64,000 nucleotides of DNA, taken from Thermaerobacter sp. FW80. Its GTDB lineage: Bacteria; Bacillota; Sulfobacillia; Thermaerobacterales; Thermaerobacteraceae. Shown piece by piece: positions 29,117 through 47,583 of the stretch. The DNA is taken from positions 62,001-126,000 of the forward strand of contig NZ_CP037895.1 in assembly GCF_004634385.1 (NCBI RefSeq), written 5' to 3'. Under the pieces are notes generated by a model, which did not search any database, had not been told where the DNA came from, and was given only the letters and a program-made list of their open reading frames with translations. Made by a program: the position numbers and the translations under genes. Each line of letters starts with the position of its first letter. Position 1 is the first letter of the stretch.

Positions 29117-30542
29117 GGTGACGTCCTAAACTGTCTGTAAACGCGAAGCGGTCTGGGCTACCATCGGTGGCGTCGGAAAACTCGCCCCAGCTGGGGCACA
29201 CCGAGGAGGACCCAGACCTATGTCCAGGATACCACCCAGCCAGCAGTTGGCGGAGCTGGCCCGGCAGCTGGCCGCGCAGGCCCGGGAGGGTACTGAGGTC
29301 GAGGACCTGACCCATGCCCTCGTCCGCCTGGGCGCCCGCAAGCTCATCCAGGAGCTGCTGGAGGCAGAGGTCACGGAGCTTTTGGGGCGCGGACGCTACG
29401 AGCGGCGCGAGCCTGGCCAGGAAGGCGCCCGCAACGGCTACAAGCCGCGGACGCTGCGTTGCGCCGAGGGGCGGCTCGAGATCGACGTCCCCCAGGTGCG
29501 GGGCATGGAGGGACTGTGCCAGCCCACGCTGTGGAGGGCCCTCAAGCGGCGGACGGACGTGCTGGAGCGCCTGGTGGTGGAGATGTACGCCCGGGGCCTC
29601 TCTACCCGGGACATCGAGGATGCGCTGGCGGAGCTGGCGGGCAGCGAAGCGCCGCTTTTGAGCCGGTCCACCGTGAGCCGGATCACCGAGGCGCTCCACG
29701 AGGAGTTCGAGGCCTTTGCCCAGCGGGACCTGTCAGGCCTCGACGTGGTGTACCTGTTCGCCGACGCCATCTACGAGTCGCTGCGCCGGCAGGCGGGCTG
29801 CCGTGAGGGCATCCTGGTCACCTGGGCCATCTTGAGCGACGGCAGCAAGGTGCTGGTGCACCTGAGCCTGGGCAACAAGGAGCGCTACGAGGACTGGCTG
29901 GAGCACTTCCGGGATCTGGTGCGCCGGGGGCTGAAGACGCCGCTGACGGTGACGACGGACGGGGCGCCGGGGCTGATCCAGGCGGTGGAAGCCATGTGGC
30001 CGGAGGCGGAGCGCATCCGCTGCTGGGTGCACAAGATGCGGAACGTGCTGGACAAGGTGCCGGAGGAGGCGCGGCCCGTGCTCAAGCCCTACCTGGAGGC
30101 GATCCGGGACGCACCGGATATCGAGCAGGGCCGGCGGCTGGTGGCCGAGGTGGTGGAGCGGTTCGGGCGGGAGTATCCCTCGGCCATGCGGAGCCTGCAG
30201 GAGGACCTGGAAGCGAGCCTGGCGCACCTGCGGCTACCCGCCGCCCACCGCAAGCATGTCCGGACCACCAACCTGGTGGAGCGCAGCTTCGAGGAGGAGC
30301 GGCGGCGCGCCAAGGTGATCCCGCGGTTTCGGAGCGAGCGGGAGTGCCTGAAGCTAGTCTTCGCCGTGCTGTGGCGGGCGAGTGAGCGCTGGCGGCGGGT
30401 GCAGTTCAGCGAGCACGAACGAAAGCAGCTGGAGCGCTACATCGAGGAGCGGCAACGGCAAAGAGCGGCGCAGAAAGAGGTTTCACCCGCTGCCACCGTG
30501 GCATGACCCAGACCGCTTTTACAGACAGTTCGGGACTTGACC
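29117..30542 (+). mobile_element. IS256-family insertion sequence, copy 3
   Basis: Same 1,426-bp element, flanked by the nine-base duplication CGCAAACCG (29108-29116 and 30543-30551). By eye it is identical to copy 2. It interrupts the secreted-protein gene near the start of its last third. Confidence 0.95.
29220..30506 (+). CDS. IS256-family transposase (copy 3)
   Basis: Intact 428-residue Mutator-type transposase, the same protein as copy 2. Confidence 0.95.
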   Translation: MSRIPPSQQLAELARQLAAQAREGTEVEDLTHALVRLGARKLIQELLEAEVTELLGRGRYERREPGQEGARNGYKPRTLRCAEGRLEIDVPQVRGMEGLCQPTLWRALKRRTDVLERLVVEMYARGLSTRDIEDALAELAGSEAPLLSRSTVSRITEALHEEFEAFAQRDLSGLDVVYLFADAIYESLRRQAGCREGILVTWAILSDGSKVLVHLSLGNKERYEDWLEHFRDLVRRGLKTPLTVTTDGAPGLIQAVEAMWPEAERIRCWVHKMRNVLDKVPEEARPVLKPYLEAIRDAPDIEQGRRLVAEVVERFGREYPSAMRSLQEDLEASLAHLRLPAAHRKHVRTTNLVERSFEEERRRAKVIPRFRSERECLKLVFAVLWRASERWRRVQFSEHERKQLERYIEERQRQRAAQKEVSPAATVA

Positions 30543-30600: not shown

Positions 30601-32025
30601 GTTAGTGTCCCAGGTGGTGGTGGAAATCGCCGGGCTGTAGGGCCCGAGCCTGGTGGCCCTTGACAAGAAAGGTCACCGGTGGCTCCCCTTCGGGTTGGAC
30701 AAGAACCGCCATGAAGGGAGGTCCGCTCACCGGTGACCGCTGATTTCAGGATGGCACTTCTCGAGCTTCTACGCAAACACCAGGGGGAGCCGGAAGCCGA
30801 TGCCCTGCGGGAAGGACTACGCTGGCTGGCCCAACAGCTCATGGAGCTCGAGGTGAGCGAACTCGTTGGCGCTCAGCGGTACGAGCGCACGGAAACGCGC
30901 AAGACCTACCGGAACGGCTATCGCTCCCGGCCCTGGGATACCCGCGTGGGCACCATCGAGCTGCGGATCCCAAAGCTCCGCCAGGGCAGCTACTTCCCAA
31001 GCCTGCTGGAGCCACGCCGGCGGGCGGAACGGGCCCTGGTCGCCGTGGTGCAGGAGGCTTATGTGCAGGGGGTCAGCACCCGGAAGGTCGACGACCTGGT
31101 CCGGGCCTTGGGCCTGGACGGCATCAGCAAGAGCGAGGTGTCGCGACTCTGCGCGGAACTGGACGAGCGGATGGAGCGCTTCCGCAACCGTCCCCTGGAA
31201 GGCGAGTACCCCTACGTTTGGCTCGACGCCAAGCCGATCAAGGTGCGGCAGGACCACCGGGTGGTGAACATGGCCGCGGTCATCGCCGTCGGGGTGAAGC
31301 GAACCGGGGAGCGCGAGGTGCTGGGCTTTGACGTGGGCGCCGCCGAGACGTACGAGTTCTGGCTCGCGTTTCTCCGCAGCCTGGTGGCCCGCGGGCTCAA
31401 GGGTGTTCGCCTCGTCATCTCCGATGCCCATGAGGGGCTCAAGCGCGCCATCAGCGAGGTGCTGGCGGGCGCCAGCTGGCAACGGTGCCGCGTGCACTTC
31501 ATGCGGAACCTGCTGGCCCGGGTGCCCAAGCACGCCCAGCCGATGGTGGCGGCCCTGGTGCGGACGATCTTCGCCCAGCCCGACCTGGAGTCCGCCCGGG
31601 AGCAGCTGGAACACGTGGCAGCCAACCTGGACCGGCGATTCCCCCAGGCCGCCGCTCTGCTTCGGGATGCAATGGAGGACGTGCTGGCGTACATGGCCTT
31701 CCCGACCGAGCACTGGCGGCGGATCCACTCGACCAACGTTCTGGAGCGGCTGAATCGGGAACTGGCCCGGCGCTGCGACGTGGTGGGGATCTTCCCGAAC
31801 ATGGCCGCCGCCATCCGCCTGTTGGGAGCTCTTCTCGAGGAGCAACAGGACGAATGGCTGGTGTCCCGGCGGTACTTCAGCCTGGAGTCGATGGCCAAGA
31901 TTGACGCGTGTACATCACATGAGGCTACGCGGCTCCATGAAACCGAAGCAACCCTGAAGGTGCTGGCCATGTAAGGCGTTCAAACCCGAGGGGAGCGCAA
32001 ATCACACCACTTGACGGGACGTGAC
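30601..32025 (+). mobile_element. Second type of IS256-family insertion sequence
   Basis: A 1,425-bp element. The left end begins GTTAGTGTCCCAGGTGGTG and the right end, read in reverse, begins GTCACGTCCCGTCAAGTGG, an imperfect inverted repeat. It is flanked by the nine-base duplication CTATGTCCC (30592-30600 and 32026-32034). It splits the secreted-protein gene upstream of IS256 copy 3. A truncated relative sits at 53647-54616. Confidence 0.9.
30733..31974 (+). CDS. IS256-family transposase, second type
   Basis: A 413-residue Mutator-type transposase only distantly like the copies 1-3 protein. The motifs YRNGYRSRPWDTRVGTIEL, VWLDAKPIKVR (first Asp), VISDAHEGLK (second Asp), RCRVHFMRNLLARVPK and HSTNVLERLNRELARR (with the Glu) are all present. 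The GTG at 30733 overlaps an inverted repeat (TCACCGGTGACC) that may regulate it. It appears intact. Confidence 0.9.
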   Translation: MTADFRMALLELLRKHQGEPEADALREGLRWLAQQLMELEVSELVGAQRYERTETRKTYRNGYRSRPWDTRVGTIELRIPKLRQGSYFPSLLEPRRRAERALVAVVQEAYVQGVSTRKVDDLVRALGLDGISKSEVSRLCAELDERMERFRNRPLEGEYPYVWLDAKPIKVRQDHRVVNMAAVIAVGVKRTGEREVLGFDVGAAETYEFWLAFLRSLVARGLKGVRLVISDAHEGLKRAISEVLAGASWQRCRVHFMRNLLARVPKHAQPMVAALVRTIFAQPDLESAREQLEHVAANLDRRFPQAAALLRDAMEDVLAYMAFPTEHWRRIHSTNVLERLNRELARRCDVVGIFPNMAAAIRLLGALLEEQQDEWLVSRRYFSLESMAKIDACTSHEATRLHETEATLKVLAM

Positions 32026-34118: not shown

Positions 34119-34588
34119 GGGGCCATCCTCCTTCTTGCGGGGGGTATTGATCGTTTTCTTACCCTGTACGGTCGGTGCGGTGCAAGGCGCAATGGGACGG
34201 CGGCGAACGGTGGCCTTGGCCCACCGAAGGGGTCCGGGCCGGCGGTGGACGGCGGGGTCCGGCGCCGGCAGGGTCCCCTCCCCTTCGCGCCCCGTCCGTG
34301 CCAGTGACCGCCGAAGCCAAGGGCAAGGGGCAGCGAGCCCACCGGGGGCCGATCCCAGCCGCCGGCCGCCGACCGGGGTCCGGCCGCCGGCTGCCCCCAC
34401 CGCCACCCGACCGCCCCCGGACGCCGGCCGGCCTCGGTGGGGGTGCGGCGGGCTCGACGAACGGGCCGCACTCGGCGGATTCCGCAGGCGAAGCGGTCGC
34501 ATGATGCGTCTTCCGCCCGCATAAGGTGGTCGCGTGACGTCCACCGAACGTTAAAGAACCTTAATCAAACATCTTTCGGCGGAATGGG
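34119..34588. other. Gene-free stretch between isocitrate lyase and the ilv-leu leader
   Basis: Very GC-rich with open frames on both strands but no recognised protein. AT-richer patches at about 34135-34165 and 34540-34570 are the likely promoter areas for aceA (leftward) and the ilv-leu operon (rightward). Confidence 0.4.
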
Positions 34589-34616
34589 TTGACACCCCCC
34601 GAGCCGGTGCTATAAT
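34589..34616 (+). promoter_or_regulatory. Consensus promoter of the ilv-leu operon leader
   Basis: Perfect TTGACA (34589-34594) and perfect TATAAT (34611-34616) separated by 16 bases. Transcription would start near 34623, just before the first pairing element of the ykkC-type RNA, so the promoter and riboswitch fit together. A second TTGACA at 34988 has no minus-ten partner. Confidence 0.9.
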
Positions 34617-34624
34617 CCAGGTCA

Positions 34625-34930
34625 AACCTGACACGGACAGCACCAGCGCTCCGCGATGCAGAGCGGTCCGCGTCGGTTTGGGAAGTGCGCCTAGGGTTCC
34701 GCACCGTGTCCGCAGGGTGTCGGTACCGGCCCCATCCGGTGGCCGGCACGACCCGAGAGGCTCTGCCGCCCCGTCCCTTTACGGGGCGCCGCCGATGGGC
34801 GAGGCGCCCCGGTTGGCGGACCGCGAAGGCAATGGCGGCCGGCCGGATGCGGTGGACTGGACCGAGCGGCGCAACCCGTCGGGTTCGTCCGGCGGGACAC
34901 CGTGGGGATAAAAGCCCCGAGCGGCAGGTT
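34625..34930 (+). promoter_or_regulatory. ykkC-family riboswitch, probable ppGpp type (subtype 2a)
   Basis: Conserved ykkC elements occur in order: CTAGGGTTCCG (34691-34701), ACCCGAGAGG (34751-34760) and GGACACCGTGGGGATAAAAG then CCCC (34895-34918). The closing stem pairs AACCTG (34625-34630) with CAGGTT (34925-34930). The ykkC group has several ligands: guanidine, ppGpp, PRPP and nucleoside diphosphates. Placement before branched-chain amino acid genes is the known context of the ppGpp type, which is the basis for the subtype. An insert of about 125 bases separates two conserved blocks. The 3' arm overlaps the terminator stem, which predicts a ligand-on switch. Confidence 0.8.
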
Positions 34931-34973
34931 CCCAACCCCGGTTGGCGCCTTCGCCGCTCGGGGTCTCTTGTTA
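34914..34973 (+). terminator. Riboswitch-controlled terminator
   Basis: GCCCCGAGCGGC (34914-34925) pairs with GCCGCTCGGGG (34953-34963), followed by the U-rich TCTCTTGTT. The first arm is shared with the last conserved block and closing stem of the ykkC aptamer, so aptamer and terminator exclude each other: ligand bound means read-through. The loop contains an inner CCAACCCCGGTTGG hairpin. Confidence 0.8.
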
Positions 34974-35012
34974 TCCGTGGCGCATCCTTGACAACCCGAC
35001 GCGAGCAACGGC

Positions 35013-35519
35013 CGTGAAGGGGAGCAGTACCCGGTGCTCCCGGCTGCAGAGAGCCGGTGGCCGGTGCGAACCGGCGCCGTGGACCCGGCGAACTCGCCCC
35101 GGAGCCGTTCCGGTGAAGGGCCGCAGCCCCTAGCCGGAGCCGGCGGCTTCAGAACCCGGTCGCTCGCTCCCATGGCGAAGCGCCTGCGTGCGGCAGCGCA
35201 CCGTCCTGGCAAGTCGTACGCGGCCATGCCGATGGCGACCCGCCCGACGGTCCAGCCCCGGTCCCCGACGGACCGCGCGGTGGACCCGCTCCGCGCCATG
35301 CCGCGCGGTCTGCGGAAGGCCGGACGGCATGCGCCCCTTGAGGGCCCCGATCGCCGGGCGGGTGCCGGCAGGACCCGCCGGGGTCCGCCACGACGAGCGT
35401 CGCCAGGGCCAGCGGGACCGGCGTCCGGGAGAGGAGTCGTCGTTAGCCCAAAGGGTGGCGGTCTCCGCCACCCGCCGAGGCCGCCGCCGCGAGGCGGCGG
35501 CAACCGGGGTGGTACCGCG
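35013..35519 (+). promoter_or_regulatory. T-box leader with leucine (CUC) specifier
   Basis: The T-box GGGGTGGTACCGCG is at 35506-35519. Stem I features lie upstream: the AGAGAG bulge (35048-35053), a T-loop-like segment, and the specifier region GGCGAACTCGCC with CTC at 35093-35095. CUC reads as leucine. The UGGU of the T-box pairs with an ACCA tRNA end, consistent with the A discriminator of tRNA-Leu. Uncharged tRNA-Leu would stabilise the antiterminator and allow transcription of the ilv-leu genes. The leader is long (about 500 bases), with GC-rich filler between stem I and the T-box. Confidence 0.88.
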
Positions 35520-35520
35520 A

Positions 35521-35582
35521 AGAGGGCGCTCTTCGCCCCCGGCCCAGAGCGGGCCCGGGGCGAAGAGCGCCCTCCGCCTTTG
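35521..35582 (+). terminator. T-box-controlled terminator
   Basis: GAGGGCGCTCTTCGCCCC (from 35522) pairs with GGGGCGAAGAGCGCCCTC (to about 35574), one of the strongest stems in the window. Its left arm follows directly on the T-box, as needed for the antiterminator switch. The T tract after it is short (CCTTTGT), so termination may depend on stem strength. Confidence 0.8.
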
Positions 35583-35601
35583 TACGAAGGGGGTGAGACC
35601 G

Positions 35602-36306
35602 GTGATCCACGTCATGGTGCTGGCCGCCGACCGACCCGGGATCCTCCGGCGCATCCTCGGCGTCTACGAGAGCCGACGCTACCAGGTCCGGTCGCTGGCC
35701 GCCGGCCCCGCCGGACCGGCCGGGTTCCTCCGAATCAACCTGGGCTTGGACGAACCGGCCCCGCGGGCCCAGCGGCTGGCCGCCCAGCTGGCGCGCCTGA
35801 TCGACGTGGTGAGCGTCGAGGTGGTCGAGCCCTCCCGCGCCGTGGGGCGGGAGCTCGCCCTGGTCAAGGTGCTGCTCGACCACCCCGGCCGGCGGGCCGA
35901 CGTCCTGCAGGTCGCCCAGGTCTTCCGCGCCCGGGTGGTGGACGTGGCGCCCCGCTCGCTGGTGCTGGAGGTGACGGGCGACCCCACCAAGGTCGAGGCC
36001 TTCCTCAACCTGGCTGCGGAGTTCGGCCCGGTGGAGGTCATGCGCACCGGGGTGGCGGCCCTGGGCCGGGGCGGCCGGGTCCTTCCCGGTGGCGTCACAG
36101 GACCCGGGCAGGGCAGGGCCGGTACCACGCGTCCCGCCGACGAACCGGCCCAGGCCGCGGCCGCAGGGGCCGCTGCCCCCCCGGAGCCGCGGTGGACCGC
36201 GGCCGCTCCGCCGGCCGCAGCCGCCGCCAACCCCCTGGCCGGGATGGCGGAACCCGACGGCGCCGGCGCCCTCGCCGCCGCGGCGACGCCCGGTCCCCAT
36301 CCGTAG
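35602..36306 (+). CDS. ilvN: Acetolactate synthase small (regulatory) subunit
   Basis: A 234-residue protein. The N-terminal ACT domain ([31 protein letters not shown]) and the C-terminal ALS small-subunit domain ([38 protein letters not shown]) are complete by about residue 155. The remaining 75 residues are Ala/Pro/Gly-rich and not conserved. It binds valine and activates the large subunit IlvB, which lies at the far end of the operon. The GTG at 35602 follows GGGGGTGA. It is the first gene after the T-box. Confidence 0.92.
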
Positions 36307-36463
36307 GGTGCGGCCCGACGGACCTGGCGCCGGGCTGACCGAGGGGCCGGGTCGACCGGAGGCGGCCCCTCCGACGAGGGCCCCGCGGCAGGCCGACGGC
36401 ACCAGACGCCACCATCCCATGTTCGGGCCCCATGCCCGGACCACGACACGAGGAGGGGTTCCC

Positions 36464-37534
36464 GTGGCCACCATCTACTACGACCGGGACGCCGATCCCG
36501 AGCTCATCCGCCGGCGCCGGGTGGCCGTCATCGGCTACGGCAGCCAGGGCCACGCCCAGGCCCAGAACCTGCGGGACCGGGGGGTGGACGTGGTCATCGG
36601 CATCCGCCCCGGCGCCAGCGCCGAGCGGGCCCGGGCGGACGGCTTCCCCACCTACGCGCCGGCCGAGGCAGCGGCCATGGCCGACGTGGTGGTGATGCTC
36701 ATCCCCGACGAGCGGCAGCCCGCGGTCTTCCGGGACGAGATCGCCCCCCACCTGACCGAGGGCAAGGCCCTGGCCTTCTCCCACGGGTTCAACGTCCACT
36801 TCGGGCAGATCCGGCCGCCCAGGGGCGTGGACGTCTTCATGGTGGCGCCCAAGGCGCCGGGCCACCTGCTGCGCCGGTTCGTCCGGGAGGGGCGCAGCGT
36901 CCCCGGCCTGCTGGCCGTGGCCCAGGACGCCACGGGCCAGGCCAAGCGACTGGCCCTGTCGTACGCCTGGGGCATCGGCTGCACGGGCGCCGGCGTCATC
37001 GAGACCACGTTCCAGGAGGAGACGGAGACGGACCTCTTCGGCGAGCAGGCCGTGCTCTGCGGCGGCGTGACGGAACTCGTCAAGGCCGGGTTCGAGACCC
37101 TGGTGGAGGCCGGCTACCAGCCCGAGATCGCCTACTTCGAGTGCCTCAACGAGCTGAAGCTCATCGTGGACCTGATGTACGAGGGTGGCTTGGCCCGCAT
37201 GCGCTACTCCATCAGCGACACCGCCGAGTACGGCGACCTCACCCGCGGGCCGCGGATCATCGACGCCGGCGTGCGCCAGCGGATGAAGGAGATCCTGGCG
37301 GAGATCCAGTCCGGCGCCTTCGCCCGCGAGTGGATCCTGGAGAACCAGGCGGGACGGCCGGTGATGAACGCCCGCCGTGCCCAGGAGGCCCGGCACCCCA
37401 TCGAGGAGGTGGGCCGTCGGCTCCGGGCGATGATGGATTGGCTGCCCAGGGATGACGAGGCGCCGCAGGCGACGGGCGCCACCGGGGGCCCCCAGGCGGC
37501 GCAGCCGGTGGGCTCGACGCGGCAAGCCGGTTAG
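36464..37534 (+). CDS. ilvC: Ketol-acid reductoisomerase
   Basis: A 356-residue class I enzyme. The nucleotide-binding motif is [20 protein letters not shown]; catalytic acids are seen in [20 protein letters not shown] and [19 protein letters not shown]. It converts acetolactate to dihydroxyisovalerate, and the ethyl analogue for isoleucine. The cofactor loop [10 protein letters not shown] retains a Ser and suggests NADPH, but this is not certain. The GTG at 36464 follows AGGAGGGG. Confidence 0.95.
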
Positions 37535-37551: not shown

Positions 37552-38880
37552 ATGGCGGATGGGGTGGGCGAGGTCACGAGGACCCCCACGACGGACGCCT
37601 CGGCGGAGACCTCTGCGACGCGGACCGGCGTGACCCGCCCCGCGGGGGCCGACGCCGAGGCCGGAGGAGCCGGCGCGAACCCCGATCGGGTGCGCATCTT
37701 CGACACCACGCTGCGCGACGGCGAGCAGACCCCCGGCGTTGCCCTGACGGTGGAGGAGAAGGTCGAGGTGGCCCGCTGGCTCGAGGCGCTGGGCGTGGAC
37801 GTCATCGAGGCCGGCTTCCCCGTGGCCTCCGACGGCGAGTTCGAGGCGGTGGGCCGGATCGCCGAGGCGATCCAGGGCCCGGTGGTGGCGGCCCTGGCCC
37901 GCACCGCGGCGGCGGACATCGACCGGGCCTGGGCGGCCATCCGCCACGCCCGCCGGCCGCGGATCCACGTCTTCGTCTCCACCTCGCCCGTCCACCTGGA
38001 GGCCATGCTGCGCATGACGGAAGACCAGGTGCTGCGGCTGGTGGAGGAGATGGTGGCGTATGCCCGCTCGCTGTGCCCGGACGTGGAGTTCTCCGCCCAG
38101 GACGCCACCCGCAGCGACGTGGGCTTTCTCGCCGAGGTGACGGCGGCAGCCATCGAGGCCGGGGCGACCACCATCAACCTGCCCGACACCGTGGGCTACG
38201 CCACGCCCTGGACCTACGCCCGCATGTTCCAGGAGGTCATGGCCCGGGTGCCCGGGTCGGACCGGGTGGTGTTCAGCGCCCACACCCACGACGACCTGGG
38301 CATGGCGGTGGCCAACGCCCTGGCGGCGGTGCGGGTGGGGGTCCGCCAGGTGGAGTGCACCATCAACGGCATCGGCGAGCGGGCGGGCAACTGCTCCCTG
38401 GAAGAGGTGGTCATGGCGCTGGCGGTACGGGGCGACGTCTTCGGCGCCACCACGGGGGTGGACACTCAGAGGCTGGTCCCCACCAGCCAACTGGTCTCGC
38501 GCCTGACGGGCGTGCCCGTTCCTCCCAACAAGGCGGTGGTCGGGGCCAACGCCTTCGCCCACGAGTCGGGCATCCACCAGGACGGCGTGATCAAGAACCC
38601 GCTGACCTACGAGATCATCCGGCCCGAGGCGGTGGGAGCCGGCGGCTCGCAGCTGGTGCTGGGCAAGCACTCGGGCCGCCACGCCGTGCGGGTGGAGCTG
38701 GAGCGGCTGGGCTTCCGCCTGCCGGAGGAGGCCTTCCGCGAGGTCTTCCGCCGCTTCAAGGCCCTGGCCGACCGCCGGGAGTTCGTCAGCAAGGAAGCCC
38801 TCGCCCGGCTGGCGGCCGAGGTGCTGGACGAACGGCAGCAAGAGAGCGGGGCCGCATCCCGGCTCGCCCACGGCGCCTGA
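37552..38880 (+). CDS. leuA: 2-isopropylmalate synthase lacking the regulatory domain
   Basis: A 442-residue enzyme. About 45 N-terminal residues are low-complexity; the HMGL-type barrel follows, with [13 protein letters not shown], the metal His pair in [21 protein letters not shown] and the accessory helices to [13 protein letters not shown] and [10 protein letters not shown]. It then ends near residue 442. The usual LeuA dimer domain of about 120 residues, which binds leucine for feedback, is absent. The size resembles homocitrate synthase, but the leuCDB neighbours argue for leucine synthesis. It starts 17 bases after ilvC. Confidence 0.88.
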
Positions 38881-39202: not shown

Positions 39203-40504
39203 ATGGCGGCACGCCGCCCGATGACCATCACCGAGAAGATCCTCGCCGCCCACGCCGGCCTCCCCTCGGTCGAACCCGGCCAGCTGGTCGAGGTCCGGGT
39301 CGACTTCCTCATGGCCAACGACATCACCGCGCCCCTGGCGATCCGGGCCTTCCGGGAGATGGGGGCGACCAAGGTCTTCGACCCCGAGCGGGTGGCCATC
39401 GTCCTCTCCCACTTCGCCCCCAGCAAGGACATCCGCAGCGCCGACCAGTGCAAGGTGGCGCGGGAGTTCGCCCGGGAGCAGGGCCTGACCCACTACTACG
39501 AGATGGGCGAGGGCATCGAGCACGCGCTGCTGCCCGACCGCGGGCTGGTTCTTCCCGGCGAGCTGGTGCTGGGGGCCGACTCCCACACCTGCACCTACGG
39601 CGCCGTGGGCTGCTTCGCCACCGGCGTGGGCAGCACCGACCTGGCGTACGCCATGGCCACCGGCGAGACGTGGCTCAAGGTGCCGGAGACGCTGAAGTTC
39701 GTGTACTACAACCGGCTGCAGCCGTGGGTCACCGGGAAGGACCTGATCCTCTACACCATCGGCCGCATCTCGTGCGACGGGGCCACGTACAAGGCCATGG
39801 AGTTCACCGGCGAGGCCCTGGCCGACCTCAGCATGGACGGGCGGCTGGCCATGGCCAACATGGCCATCGAGGCCGGTGGGAAGAACGGCATCTTCAACCC
39901 CGACCAGCGGACCCTGGACTACGTCGCCCAGCGGGCCCAGCGGCCGTGCAGCCCCGTCTGGTCCGATCCCGACGCGGAATACGCCGAGGTGTACGAGTTC
40001 AACGCCGCCCAGATCGAGCCGCAGGTGGCCCTGCCCTGGTCGCCCGACAACGTGCGGCCCCTGAGCCAGGTGGAGCGCGTCCCCATCGACCAGGTGTTCA
40101 TCGGCTCCTGCACCAACGGCCGCCTGGACGACCTGCGCATGGCCGCCCGCATCCTGCGCGGCCGCCGGGTGCATCCCGAGGTGCGGGCCATCGTGATCCC
40201 CGCGTCGCGGGACATCTACCTGCAGGCGCTCAAGGAGGGGCTCATCGAGGTCTTCATGGCCGCCGGGTGCGTGGTCAGCGCCTCCACCTGCGGCCCCTGC
40301 CTGGGCGGCCACATGGGCGTGCTGGGCAAGGGCGAGCGCTGCGTCAGCACCTCGAACCGCAACTTCGTCGGCCGGATGGGCCACCCCGAGTCGGAGTCGT
40401 ACCTGGCCAATCCGGCGGTGGCCGCGGCCTCGGCGGTGGCGGGCCGGCTCTGCCATCCGGAGGAACTCGGCATCCGGTACGAAGAGGTGGCCGGGGTGGC
40501 GTGA
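39203..40504 (+). CDS. leuC: 3-isopropylmalate dehydratase large subunit
   Basis: A 433-residue aconitase-family protein of the shorter LeuC type shared by archaea and many Gram-positives. The three [4Fe-4S] cysteines are in GSCTNGR and STCGPCLGGHMG. GADSHTCTYGAVG and SNRNFVGRMGH are also conserved. With LeuD it isomerises 2- to 3-isopropylmalate. The ATG follows GAGGAGG. This type can belong to homoaconitase-like enzymes; the operon supports leucine synthesis. Confidence 0.92.
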   Translation: MAARRPMTITEKILAAHAGLPSVEPGQLVEVRVDFLMANDITAPLAIRAFREMGATKVFDPERVAIVLSHFAPSKDIRSADQCKVAREFAREQGLTHYYEMGEGIEHALLPDRGLVLPGELVLGADSHTCTYGAVGCFATGVGSTDLAYAMATGETWLKVPETLKFVYYNRLQPWVTGKDLILYTIGRISCDGATYKAMEFTGEALADLSMDGRLAMANMAIEAGGKNGIFNPDQRTLDYVAQRAQRPCSPVWSDPDAEYAEVYEFNAAQIEPQVALPWSPDNVRPLSQVERVPIDQVFIGSCTNGRLDDLRMAARILRGRRVHPEVRAIVIPASRDIYLQALKEGLIEVFMAAGCVVSASTCGPCLGGHMGVLGKGERCVSTSNRNFVGRMGHPESESYLANPAVAAASAVAGRLCHPEELGIRYEEVAGVA

Positions 40505-40718: not shown

Positions 40719-40780
40719 CGTCCTACGGGCGTCGGACGCGATAGACGACGCGAGGTGCGCACGGTGAGGAGGTGGCGGCC

Positions 40781-41308
40781 GTGGGCCGCGTGTGGAAGTA
40801 CGGCGACGACATCAACACCGACGTGATCATCCCGGCGCGGTACCTGTTCACCACGGACCCGGCGGAGCTGGCGGCCCACTGCATGGAAGACCTGGACCCC
40901 AGCTTCGCCGGCAAGGTCCGTCCCGGCGACGTCATCGTCGCCGGCCGCAACTTCGGCTGCGGCTCGTCGAGGGAACACGCGCCCGTCGCCATCCGGGCCG
41001 CGGGGGTGGCGTGTGTCATCGCCGTGTCCTTCGCGCGGATCTTCTACCGCAACGCCATCAACGTGGGCCTGCCGATCCTGGAGTGCCCCGAGGCGGTGGC
41101 CGCCCTGCAGGACGGCGACGAGGTTGAGGTCGACGTGGCGGCCGGCACCATCCGGCGCGTGGCCACCGGGGAGACCTTCCAGGCGGCCCCCTTCCCGCCC
41201 TTCATGCAGGAGATCCTGCGGTGCGGCGGGCTGGTGGAGTACGCGCGCCGCAAGCTGGCGGCCGCCGCGGCGGCACCGGAGGGTGCGGACCCACAGCGGT
41301 CCCCTTGA
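40781..41308 (+). CDS. leuD: 3-isopropylmalate dehydratase small subunit
   Basis: About 175 residues. [17 protein letters not shown], the active-site [10 protein letters not shown] and [14 protein letters not shown] are diagnostic for LeuD/aconitase swivel domains. The GTG at 40781 is spaced correctly from GAGGAGG; the GTG nine bases upstream overlaps that site. The tail is short and Ala-rich. It pairs with LeuC. Confidence 0.93.
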
Positions 41309-41492: not shown

Positions 41493-43019
<1,527 letters not shown>

Positions 43020-43024
43020 GACGC

Positions 43025-45052
43025 GTGACGTCGCCATCCGGAACGGGGACGGGCGTGGCCCCTGCGGCGGCAACGGAACGGGGGACGGCTGCGGTGCAAC
43101 TGGGGCCGACCGCTGCGGTGCGACCCGGGCCGACCGGTGCGGCGCAGCAAGGGTCGACCTCTGCCGTGCCGCACGGGCGGACCGCCGTGGCGCAGCAAGC
43201 ATCGACCGTCGCCGTGCCGCACGGGCCGACCGCCGCGGCGCAGCAAGCATTGACCGTCGCCGTGCCGCCCGGGCCGACCGCCACCGGCTCCGCCACGACG
43301 GCCGGTTCGTCGGTCCAGGCGCCCCCGGCGGCCGAGCCCCGGGCCAACGGCACGGCCGTCCCCCTGCGCAGCCGGGAGGTGGTGGAGGGATTCCACCGCG
43401 CCCCCCACCGCTCCCTCTTCAAGGCCATGGGCTACACCGACGAGGAGCTGCGCCGCCCGCTGATCGGGGTGATGAACAGCCGCAACGAGATCATCCCCGG
43501 CCACGTGCACCTGGACAACATCGCCCGCGCCGTGTGCGACGGCATCCGCATGGCCGGCGGCACGCCGATCCAGTTCGGCGTCATCGGCGTCGACGACGGT
43601 ATCGCCATGGGCCACCGCGGCATGCGCTTCTCCCTGCCCAGCCGCGAGCTCATCGCCGACTCCATCGAGACGGTCACCGAGGCCCATCAGCTGGACGGCC
43701 TGGTGCTGATCCCCAACTGCGACAAGATCACGCCGGGGATGCTGATGGCCGCGGCCCGCCTGAACCTGCCCACGGTGGTGGTCAGCGGCGGGCCGATGAT
43801 GGCCGGCAACGTCTACGGCCGGGCCGTCAACCTGGCTACGGTCTTCGAGGGCGTGGGCGCCTTCCAGGCCGGCCGCATCACCGCCGAGGAGCTCTTCGAG
43901 CTGGAGGAGGCCGCCTGTCCCACCTGCGGCTCCTGCTCCGGCATGTTCACCGCCAACTCCATGAACTGCCTGACCGAGGCCATCGGCCTCGGGCTGCCCG
44001 GCAACGGCACCATCCCGGCCGTGGAAGCCGCCCGGCTGCGGCTGGCCAAGCAGGCCGGCATGCAGGTGATGGAGCTGGTGCGCCGCGGCATCCGGGCCCG
44101 GGACATCCTGACCGAGGCCGCCTTCCGCAACGCCCTGGCCGTCGACATGGCCCTGGGCTGCTCCACCAACACGGTGCTGCACCTGCTGGCCATCGCCCAC
44201 GACGCCGGCCTGGCCGACGTGATCACCCTGGACCTGATCGACGAGATCAGCCGCTCCACGCCGCAGCTCTGCAAGCTGGCCCCGGCGGGCCCCCACCACA
44301 TCCAGGACCTGCACCAGGCCGGCGGCATCCAGGCGGTGCTGGCGGAGCTCTTGCGGGGCGGGCACGTGGACGGCTCGGTGCTGACGGTCACCGGCCGGAC
44401 CCTGGCAGAGAACGTGGCCGCCGCCCAGGGCCGGATCCAGCGGGCCCGCGCCTGGCGATCCGACGTGATCCGGACGCTGGAGGAGCCCTACAGCCCCGAG
44501 GGCGGCCTGGCCGTGCTGCGCGGCAACCTGGCCCCCGACGGGGCGGTGGTGAAGCAGGGGGCCGTTGACCCGGCCATGCTGCGGCACCGCGGCCCGGCCC
44601 GGGTCTTCGACAGCGAGGAGGACGCCGCCGACGCCATCCGCCAGGGCCGCATCCGCCCGGGGGACGTGGTGGTGATCCGCTACGAGGGGCCGCGGGGCGG
44701 GCCCGGCATGCGGGAGATGCTGGCCATCACCGCCGCCCTGGCCGGCATGGGCCTCGACCGCGAGGTGGCCCTGGTGACCGACGGCCGCTTCTCCGGCGCC
44801 ACCCGGGGCGCCTCCATCGGCCACGTCTCGCCGGAGGCCGCCGCCGGCGGGCCCATCGCCCTGGTGGAGGACGGCGACGAGATCGAGATCGACATCCCGG
44901 GCCGCCGCCTGGAGCTGCGGGTTCCTCCGGACGAACTGGCCCGCCGCCGCGAGCGGTGGCAGCCGCGGCCCCCGCGGGAGGCGCGGGGTTACCTGGCCCG
45001 CTACGCCCGGGCGGTGACGTCGGCCAACACGGGTGCGGTGCTGATGGGTTGA
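43025..45052 (+). CDS. ilvD: Dihydroxy-acid dehydratase with repetitive N-terminal extension
   Basis: A 675-residue enzyme against a usual length of about 560. Residues from about 105 on are a standard Ilv[17 protein letters not shown], the cluster and Mg ligands in [11 protein letters not shown] and [12 protein letters not shown], and [21 protein letters not shown]. It dehydrates dihydroxyacids to the keto acids of valine and isoleucine. The first 100 residues are Ala/Pro/Thr/Gln-rich imperfect repeats. The GTG at 43025 follows GGAGTGTG and sits six bases after leuB, supporting this start, though an internal start near 43350 is conceivable. Confidence 0.92.
43076..43290 (+). repeat. Tandem minisatellite coding the IlvD N-terminal extension
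   Basis: Units of about 30 and 60 bases built on GCCGTGCCGCACGGGCCGAC and GCGCAGCAAGCAT repeat five to seven times with small changes. The encoded protein repeats (for example [15 protein letters not shown]) have no known fold. Copy number is likely variable. Confidence 0.8.
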
Positions 45053-45303: not shown

Positions 45304-47583
45304 GTGACTTCCTTCGGCGAACGGGTTGCCACCCGCCCCCCATCGACGGCCGCCGCGCGCGAGACTCCGCCCGGTTTCACCCCGGGCGCCGACGGGCGAG
45401 AGCCGTCGCCTGACGGTGAGCCGCTGCCCGACGGCCGGGCCGACGGACGGAGCCGGCACCCGGCGGTCCCCCCTGGCACCGCCTCCAAGGCCGGCGCGGA
45501 GCCTCACCCCGGAGCCCGGACCGAGGCTCGCGCCAAGACCGGGGCCGAGGCTCGCCCCGATAGGGGGGCAAAAAGGGGCCCCCAGGCCGGCACTGAGACT
45601 CGCCCCAAGACCGGCGCTGCGGTGGGCACCCAGACCCGCACCGAGGCTCGGCCCAAGACCGAGGTTGCGGTGGGCACCCAGACCGGCACCGAGGCTCGCC
45701 CCAAAACCGGAGCCGAGGCTCGCCGCGCCGTCGGGGCTGGAGGGGGCCCCCAGGCCGGCGTCGTGGCCAGCATCTCGGCCGGCGCGGGCCCTGCTCCCCG
45801 TACCCAGCGGGCGCCCATGACGGGCGCCGAAGCCGTGGTCCAGGTGCTGGTGGAACAGGGGGTCGAGGTGGTCTTCGGCATTCCCGGCGGCGCCGTGCTG
45901 CCCCTGTACGACGCCCTCTACGGGGCCCCGCTGCGCCACGTCCTGGCCCGCCACGAGCAGGGCGCCGCCCTGGCCGCCGACGGCTACGCCCGGGCCAGTG
46001 GCCGGGTCGGGGTGTGCATCGCGACCTCCGGCCCCGGAGCCACCAACCTGATCACGGGCCTGGCCACCTCCTACCTGGATTCGGTCCCCGTGGTGGCCAT
46101 CACCGGCAACGTGGGGCGGGCGTTCCTCGGCACCGACGCCTTCCAGGAGGCGGACACCTTCGGCGTCAGCATGCCGGTGACCAAGCACAACTACCTGGTG
46201 CTCGACCCCGAGGAGCTGCCCGCGATCCTGCGGGAGGCCTTCGCCGTGGCCGCGTCCGGCCGGCCCGGGCCGGTGCTGGTGGACATCCCCAAGGACGTCT
46301 TCACGGCGACCATCTCGCCGGAGGCGTGGGATCGCCCGCTGCGACCGACGCCCGTGGCGTCGACGGCCGATGGGGACGACCACCGTCGGCGCCACGACAG
46401 CGCGCCACGGGTTGGCGCCCACCCCACCCCATGGGGGCCCGCCGGGTGCCGCGGCCTGGGCAACCTGGACGAGGCGGCCCGGCTCATCGCCCGCGCCCGG
46501 CGGCCCGTGCTCTACGCCGGCGGTGGGGTGATCGTCGCCGGGGCCGCCGAGGCCCTGCGCCGCCTGGCGGACGAGGCGGTTCTTCCGACCACCACCACCC
46601 TGATGGCGCTGGGCGCCATGCCCGGCGATCACCCCCTCTTCCTCGGCATGCCCGGCATGCATGGGACCTACGCCGCCAACATGGCCCTCACCGAGACGGA
46701 CTGCCTCATCGCCGTCGGGGCCCGCTTCGACGACCGGGTGACCGGCAAGGTGTCGGCCTTCGCCCCCGACGCCGCCATCATCCACATCGACGTCGACGCC
46801 GCCGAGCTGGGCAAGGTCAAGGCACCGCGGGTGGCCATCGCCGCCGACGCCCGGCAGGGGCTGGAGGCGCTGCGGGAGGCCCTGGGCCGGGTTCGTCCGG
46901 ACGAGTGGTCCGATCGCAGCCCGTGGCTCGAGCGGGTGAACGGCTGGAAGCAGGAGTACCCCTACCGCTACGACCGGGACCTGGCCCGCCGCGAACTGCT
47001 TCCCCAGGCGGTGATCGAGGAACTCGAGCGGGCCACGGCCGGCGACGCCCTGGTGGTCACTGGCGTCGGCCAGCACCAGATGTGGGCGGCCATGTTCTAT
47101 CGGTACCGCCGGCCCCGGCAATTCCTGACCTCCGGTGGCCTGGGAACCATGGGCTACGGGCTGCCCGCCGCCATCGGCGCCCAGCTGGCCCGGCCGGACG
47201 CGCGGGTGCTGTGCATCGACGGCGACGGCAGCTTCCAGATGAACGTGCAGGAGCTCTCGACCCTGGCCGAGCTGGGCCTGCCGGTGAAAGTCTTCATTAT
47301 TAATAACCGCGCCCACGGCATGGTGCGGCAGTGGCAGGACCTGTTCTACGGCCACCGCCTGTCGGCCAGCGTCTTCGAGCACCAGCCGGACTTCGTCAAG
47401 CTGGCCGAGGCGTACGGCATCGCAGCCTTCCGGATCACCCATCCGGACGAACTGGCCGGCACGGTGCGCGAGGCCCTGGCGCGCCCCGGACCGGTGGTGG
47501 TGGACTGCGTCGTGCGGCAGGAGGAGGACGTGCTGCCCATGGTCCCGCCGGGGGCGGCGCTGAAGGAGATGATCGTGGGGTAG
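45304..47583 (+). CDS. ilvB: Acetolactate synthase large subunit with repetitive N-terminal extension
   Basis: A 759-residue thiamine-diphosphate enzyme; a usual length is near 570. The catalytic part starts at about residue 172 (MTGAEAVVQVLVEQGVEVVF) and shows the catalytic Glu in LARHEQGAALAADGYARA, ATSGPGATNLITG, GARFDDRVTG and the cofactor motif GDGSFQMNVQELSTL. It condenses pyruvate to acetolactate. The first 170 residues are low-complexity with tandem TEARPKT units, and a further insert of about 35 residues precedes GLGNLDEAARL. The GTG at 45304 has AGGAGG; the internal Met has no site, so the extension is probably translated. Confidence 0.93.
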   Translation: MTSFGERVATRPPSTAAARETPPGFTPGADGREPSPDGEPLPDGRADGRSRHPAVPPGTASKAGAEPHPGARTEARAKTGAEARPDRGAKRGPQAGTETRPKTGAAVGTQTRTEARPKTEVAVGTQTGTEARPKTGAEARRAVGAGGGPQAGVVASISAGAGPAPRTQRAPMTGAEAVVQVLVEQGVEVVFGIPGGAVLPLYDALYGAPLRHVLARHEQGAALAADGYARASGRVGVCIATSGPGATNLITGLATSYLDSVPVVAITGNVGRAFLGTDAFQEADTFGVSMPVTKHNYLVLDPEELPAILREAFAVAASGRPGPVLVDIPKDVFTATISPEAWDRPLRPTPVASTADGDDHRRRHDSAPRVGAHPTPWGPAGCRGLGNLDEAARLIARARRPVLYAGGGVIVAGAAEALRRLADEAVLPTTTTLMALGAMPGDHPLFLGMPGMHGTYAANMALTETDCLIAVGARFDDRVTGKVSAFAPDAAIIHIDVDAAELGKVKAPRVAIAADARQGLEALREALGRVRPDEWSDRSPWLERVNGWKQEYPYRYDRDLARRELLPQAVIEELERATAGDALVVTGVGQHQMWAAMFYRYRRPRQFLTSGGLGTMGYGLPAAIGAQLARPDARVLCIDGDGSFQMNVQELSTLAELGLPVKVFIINNRAHGMVRQWQDLFYGHRLSASVFEHQPDFVKLAEAYGIAAFRITHPDELAGTVREALARPGPVVVDCVVRQEEDVLPMVPPGAALKEMIVG
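45600..45722 (+). repeat. 54-bp tandem repeat in the ilvB extension
   Basis: A unit of about 54 bases containing GCGGTGGGCACCCAGACC and ACCGAGGCTCG repeats about two and a half times, coding TRTEARPKTEVAVGTQTG-type repeats. The length is a multiple of three, so expansion or loss keeps the frame. Confidence 0.8.

Follow-up and report, generated by a model that had tools for sequence, protein, structure and literature searches.

A predicted ppGpp riboswitch in series with a leucine T-box in the leader of the ilv-leu operon of Thermaerobacter sp. FW80

The ilv-leu operon of Thermaerobacter sp. FW80 is preceded by a leader in which a predicted ppGpp switch is followed by a T-box(Leu), an arrangement that very probably places the operon under AND-like control. 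The leader lies within a stretch of 64,000 nucleotides that was analysed as a whole (contig NZ_CP037895.1, positions 62,001 to 126,000; the window), and its elements run in the order promoter, ykkC aptamer with terminator 1, T-box with terminator 2, eight-gene operon. From studied members of the same families we infer ligand binding, the ON direction of the switches and the AND output. The features are listed below in window coordinates.

34589..34616, + strand: sigma-70 type promoter, TTGACA-16 nt-TATAAT (12/12 consensus match; conserved in congeneric genomes)
34623..34679, + strand: leader 5′ hairpin, abutting P1 directly (minimum-energy fold and five genomes)
34678..34706, + strand: predicted ykkC subtype 2a aptamer, 5′ half, with P1 5′ strand (34678-34684), CCUAGGGUUCCG core and start of P2 (sequence and homologs)
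34707..34848, + strand: 142-nt insertion at the P2 tip (conserved blocks stop and restart here in four relatives)
34849..34935, + strand: aptamer 3′ half, with P2 return strand, P3, P4 and P1 3′ strand (34929-34935) (sequence and homologs; numbering of PMC6031431)
34915..34963, + strand: terminator 1, 11-bp outer stem 34915-34925/34953-34963, then UCUCUUGUU (fold)
35005..35110, + strand: T-box stem I, specifier CUC at 35093-35095 (RF00230, 52.4 bits, E 3.4e-10)
35146..35450, + strand: long lineage-variable region from T-box stem II to stem III (much shorter in a congener)
35480..35543, + strand: T-box stem III with antiterminator and UGGU bulge; T-box sequence GGGUGGUACCGCG at 35507-35519 (RF00230 and fold)
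35521..35574, + strand: terminator 2, 18-bp stem, CUCUUCGCCCC common with the antiterminator (fold; region z -8.3)
35602..36306, + strand: ilvN, acetolactate synthase small subunit, GTG start (NF008864, 2.5e-38)
36446..37534, + strand: ilvC, start approximate (NCBIfam match)
37552..38880, + strand: leuA, start approximate (NCBIfam match)
39203..40504, + strand: leuC (NCBIfam match)
40772..41308, + strand: leuD (NCBIfam match)
41493..42600, + strand: leuB, start and coding end approximate, the open frame continuing to 43019 (NCBIfam match)
43322..45052, + strand: ilvD, start approximate (NCBIfam match)
45724..47583, + strand: ilvB, start approximate (NCBIfam match)

Layout of the leader and its expected logic

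The original prediction placed a perfect promoter at the head of the leader and eight ilv/leu genes at its end. Both claims held: the site at 34589-34616 carries all 12 consensus bases, a match expected 0.0 times after shuffling, and the genes ilvN-ilvC-leuA-leuC-leuD-leuB-ilvD-ilvB match the expected NCBIfam families in 8/8 cases. A scan of 34300-35900 detected no other promoter-like site. A conserved TTGACA near 34990 was considered as a possible additional promoter between the switches, but was rejected as no -10 follows. The TTGACA box itself, which lies between terminator 1 and the T-box, is kept in three relatives, again without a -10 box.

Two elements, each with its own terminator, lie between the single promoter and the single operon. 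As the terminators stand in series after one promoter, both must be passed, which makes the control AND-like, and because there is no other promoter-like site between the switches, AND by serial terminators is the best reading. Passage of both switches would allow ilvN-C-leuA-C-D-B-ilvD-B to be expressed under general starvation together with leucine shortage.

The stringent response is triggered by amino-acid starvation, and uncharged tRNA-Leu itself raises ppGpp, so that the two inputs would not be independent. The output could then be a graded multiplication or a hierarchy in which one switch dominates, rather than a logic AND, and the triggering of the stringent response by amino-acid starvation is discussed in PMC9481103. 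However, ppGpp is also raised by other starvation signals, so that the inputs can differ, and dominance of one switch does not sit easily with two serial terminators that must both be passed. We therefore regard a hierarchy as unlikely and retain the AND-like reading.

The AND-gate idea and the exact order of the two elements are already known. Sherlock et al. 2018 (PMC5912903, Fig. 6C) described tandem T-box and ppGpp riboswitches as an AND gate in either order, PMC6031431 and PMC7583486 repeat the ppGpp/T-box AND gate, and Table 2 of PMC9481103 (AND gates) lists 15 cases with the ppGpp riboswitch ahead of T box(Leu) and 16 with the order reversed. The question whether the order ppGpp then T-box(Leu) had been described, which the original prediction left open, is thus answered by publications (PMC9481103, PMC5912903, PMC7583486). 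A need for both ligands for full expression is a prediction in the literature as well (PMC9481103). The leader resembles the tandem gates of PMC5912903 and PMC9481103 in its RNA classes, their order, their own terminators and the branched-chain amino acid genes downstream, and differs from them in the 142-nt P2 insertion and the long variable region before T-box stem III.

The new elements are modest: an insertion-bearing member missed by Rfam and the conserved 5′ hairpin at 34623-34679; neither the insertion nor the hairpin was part of the original prediction. Both arms of the hairpin are nearly invariant in five genomes while its loop is variable, and its 3′ arm shares two nucleotides with the start of aptamer P1. 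Within a high-GC genome, the leader is a clean natural example of an RNA gate with two inputs. The published AND gate gains support and the overall picture is unchanged.

The order of a ppGpp-type aptamer followed by a T-box is kept in 5/5 genomes of the family. When searched with a trimmed-aptamer covariance model, whose hits are ykkC RNAs in general and not proven 2a members, 82/154 genomes of the class and 213/398 of the phylum contained homologs. At 18 of 56 high-scoring loci (five from this family and 13 others) a T-box motif was located within about 600 nt downstream of the aptamer, and at 3 of the 56 it was located upstream; these 56 loci were chosen for their high scores and are not a random sample, and T-boxes were counted regardless of specifier codon.

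The first aptamer, its P2 insertion and terminator 1

The aptamer at the head of the leader is of ykkC type, as had been proposed, though it is split by the insertion at the P2 tip. Its 5′ half starts about 60 nt past the promoter with UUGGGAAGUGCGCCUAGGGUUCCGCACC (34678-34705), and its 3′ half, GGUGGACUGGACCGAGCGGCGC...GGGACACCGUGGGGAUAAAAGCCCCGAGCGGCAGGUUCCCAA, begins only at about 34849. Both halves are kept almost letter for letter across same-family genomes (the window and four others). The insertion differs by lineage in length and sequence and is reduced to a 13-nt gap in the shortest of the four other family genomes compared. It folds with a z of -2.3. No second copy was found in the genome, and a repeat or mobile element was ruled out on that ground.

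At gathering thresholds Rfam gave zero matches over the entire window, and failure to match was therefore not read as absence. The covariance-model search that the original prediction had suggested was run on 34300-35900 and succeeded in part: RF00230 matched in two pieces, and RF00442 gave no match reaching E≤1. On the window aptamer RF00442 produced a fragment of 19 bits, compared with 54 bits on the homologous short-P2 leader of a same-family genome. Rfam thus misses the window aptamer because of the 142-nt insertion, and gates of this kind escape it when the aptamer carries an insertion. A partial guanidine-I match at 34829-34923 was discarded, as it consists of the true 3′ half mispaired with insertion bases, the real 5′ half being 34678-34706. 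Matches of miRNAs on the terminator hairpin were set aside as chance matches to a perfect hairpin.

The four-helix ykkC fold (P1-P4) was recovered by our own covariance model and by a pair count over 56 sequences, and the short-P2 homolog matches RF00442. In the 56 aligned homologs, 96.3% of helix cells are paired and 22/33 pairs have changed on both sides. Covariation over these loci was 0.513 against 0.153 shuffled, with no shuffle as high on 4/5 measures; it derives from distant homologs, in an alignment that was fitted to the structure and in which the model misplaces the window's own 5′ half because of the insertion. Within the family, where P1 and the ligand-binding positions scarcely vary, there is little covariation.

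With 142 nt inserted, and with insertion length and sequence varying among close relatives, ppGpp sensing might have been disabled, so that terminator 1 would only cap expression at a constant level, leaving regulation to the T-box. However, the binding-core bases are all invariant in five genomes despite the insertion, which indicates continued selection, and the tip of P2 is a variable site in the family. Loss of sensing is therefore very unlikely, and a functional first switch is preferred. A possible weakening of the fold by the large insertion, together with the poor U-tract of terminator 2, nevertheless counts against the main reading.

To assign the ligand class, positions were numbered from the residues named in PMC6031431 (A74-C75-A76-C77 in ACAC; G88-G89 after CCC) and the RF00442 alignment. 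According to PMC6031431, guanidine-I RNAs carry A46 at the site that a pyrimidine (C49) occupies in subtypes 2a and 2b; the guanine of ppGpp pairs with C75; and G96, equivalent to guanidine-I G89, is conserved in PRPP aptamers and is absent or not G in ppGpp aptamers. The window has C34867 at position 49, a pyrimidine, C34898 at position 75 and A34920 at position 96. All three bases fall on the ppGpp side, as opposed to guanidine, PRPP or an adenine ligand, and support the assignment, made in the original prediction, of the aptamer to predicted ykkC subtype 2a, ppGpp-type. The aptamer might instead sense another ykkC ligand, namely guanidine (subtype 1), PRPP (2b) or a nucleoside diphosphate (2c), given that the fold is common to all ykkC subtypes and that the 54-bit match of the short-P2 homolog is to guanidine-I, Rfam's sole ykkC model. 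Such a ligand is highly improbable: C at 49 excludes guanidine-I, PRPP is disfavoured by A in place of the G conserved in PRPP and guanidine-I aptamers, a guanine-bearing ligand suits C at 75, and the genes downstream serve branched-chain amino acid synthesis.

Locus L060, with U at 49 and G at 96, looks like a PRPP aptamer and provides an internal contrast. At locus L050 an aptamer with G at position 96 nevertheless precedes a T-box and ilvB. A provisional T. mathranii PRPP aptamer sequence was dropped, as it conflicts with the numbering of PMC6031431.

That an aptamer 3′ arm is shared with a terminator, also part of the original prediction, agrees with the fold of this region. The segment 34913-34972 folds at -38.6 kcal/mol (z -5.8). 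Bases 34915-34925 (CCCCGAGCGGC), which include the P4 3′ strand and position 96, pair perfectly with 34953-34963, and the P1 3′ strand lies inside the resulting hairpin (34915-34963). As the 3′ strands are shared, aptamer P4/P1 and terminator 1 are, on paper, mutually exclusive. In a Clostridiales ppGpp riboswitch, P1 is stabilised by ppGpp against exactly such a terminator (PMC10687018), and by that precedent the first switch is expected to be turned ON by ppGpp. Without ppGpp, the P4 3′ strand (34915-34918) and the next bases would pair with 34953-34963 to form terminator 1, and the P1 3′ strand would be taken up into this hairpin; binding of ppGpp would hold P1 and P4 in place and leave terminator 1 unable to propagate.

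The RNA is like ykkC subtype 2a riboswitches in its four-helix aptamer, C49, C75, the base other than G at 96 and the terminator overlapping P4 and P1, and unlike them in its extended P2 and the conserved 5′ hairpin that abuts P1. Most likely the insertion does no more than lengthen P2 at a distance from the binding site, as a peripheral extension that is tolerated; a third functional module attached to the ppGpp aptamer, either another sensor or a protein site, with which the leader would take three inputs, is extremely unlikely.

The T-box and terminator 2

A T-box with a CUC specifier and a second terminator had been claimed downstream, and were located as a T-box at 35005-35543, which RF00230 matches in its two pieces, and the 18-bp stem at 35521-35574. 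Positions 164-216 of RF00230 match stem III and the antiterminator at 35483-35540 (26.7 bits, E 0.0014). Stem I, the specifier loop and the T-box UGGN are all present, the specifier standing in the context GAA-CUC and the T-box reading GGGUGGUACC, with a total score below Rfam's curated cut-off. The T-box falls under this cut-off, as two pieces, because of its long internal region, and in this it differs from RF00230 T-boxes of the transcriptional class for leucine, with which it shares the stem I AGUA and AGAGA motifs, CUC, the UGGU bulge and the antiterminator/terminator pair.

The cognate tRNA is encoded in the genome: tRNA-Leu(GAG) carries A73 as its discriminator, and its anticodon and this base fit CUC and UGGU. 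Uncharged tRNA-Leu(GAG) would pair through its anticodon with CUC and through its ACCA end with UGGU, stabilising the antiterminator, and with charged tRNA-Leu terminator 2 would form. The U-tract of terminator 2 is weak (CCGCCUUUGUAC), weaker in the window than in relatives.

A leuS T-box capped by tRNA-Ala(GGC)

The same genome contains a second T-box(Leu, CUC) in the leader of leuS (G000:C1:660271-660611, - strand; L131/L132), with its stem III capped by a complete tRNA-Ala(GGC). This arrangement is more unusual than the ppGpp/T-box leader. The tRNA has a G3:U70 pair and is the only GGC-reading tRNA-Ala found in the genome, the other two being UGC and CGC. It is kept in 5/5 family genomes (relatives L133-L136), with the tRNA identical letter for letter. 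No description of a tRNA-capped T-box stem III was found in the literature searched, which included a minority of subscription papers, so that the arrangement is at most a candidate for novelty.

A wider pattern scan of species genomes gave at least 80 further loci (L144-L223). Among the 80 matches listed, a tRNA ended 9-30 nt before the T-box motif at at least 48 loci, and 47/48 of these tRNAs were tRNA-Ala(GGC). The tRNA-Ala(GGC) loci, at least 47, are labelled by their record titles as Bacillota, Chloroflexota, Coprothermobacterota, Caldisericota, Armatimonadota and others. CCA is encoded in 39/47 of those among the matches listed, and 44/47 are followed on the same strand by a gene for a leucyl-tRNA synthetase homolog. 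Again among the matches listed, the bases flanking the tRNA pair better within a locus than across loci (mean -10.4 versus -6.9 kcal/mol; lowest of 50 shuffles -7.7), as expected of a stem III. Since the tRNA-Ala precedes the terminator, it would be part of terminated and read-through transcripts alike, and the leuS leader would be both riboswitch and tRNA precursor.

Elsewhere in the window, upstream of the ilv-leu leader, two adjacent open frames at 29220-30506 and 30733-31974 (428 and 413 aa) appear, as judged by eye, to be IS256-type transposase-like.
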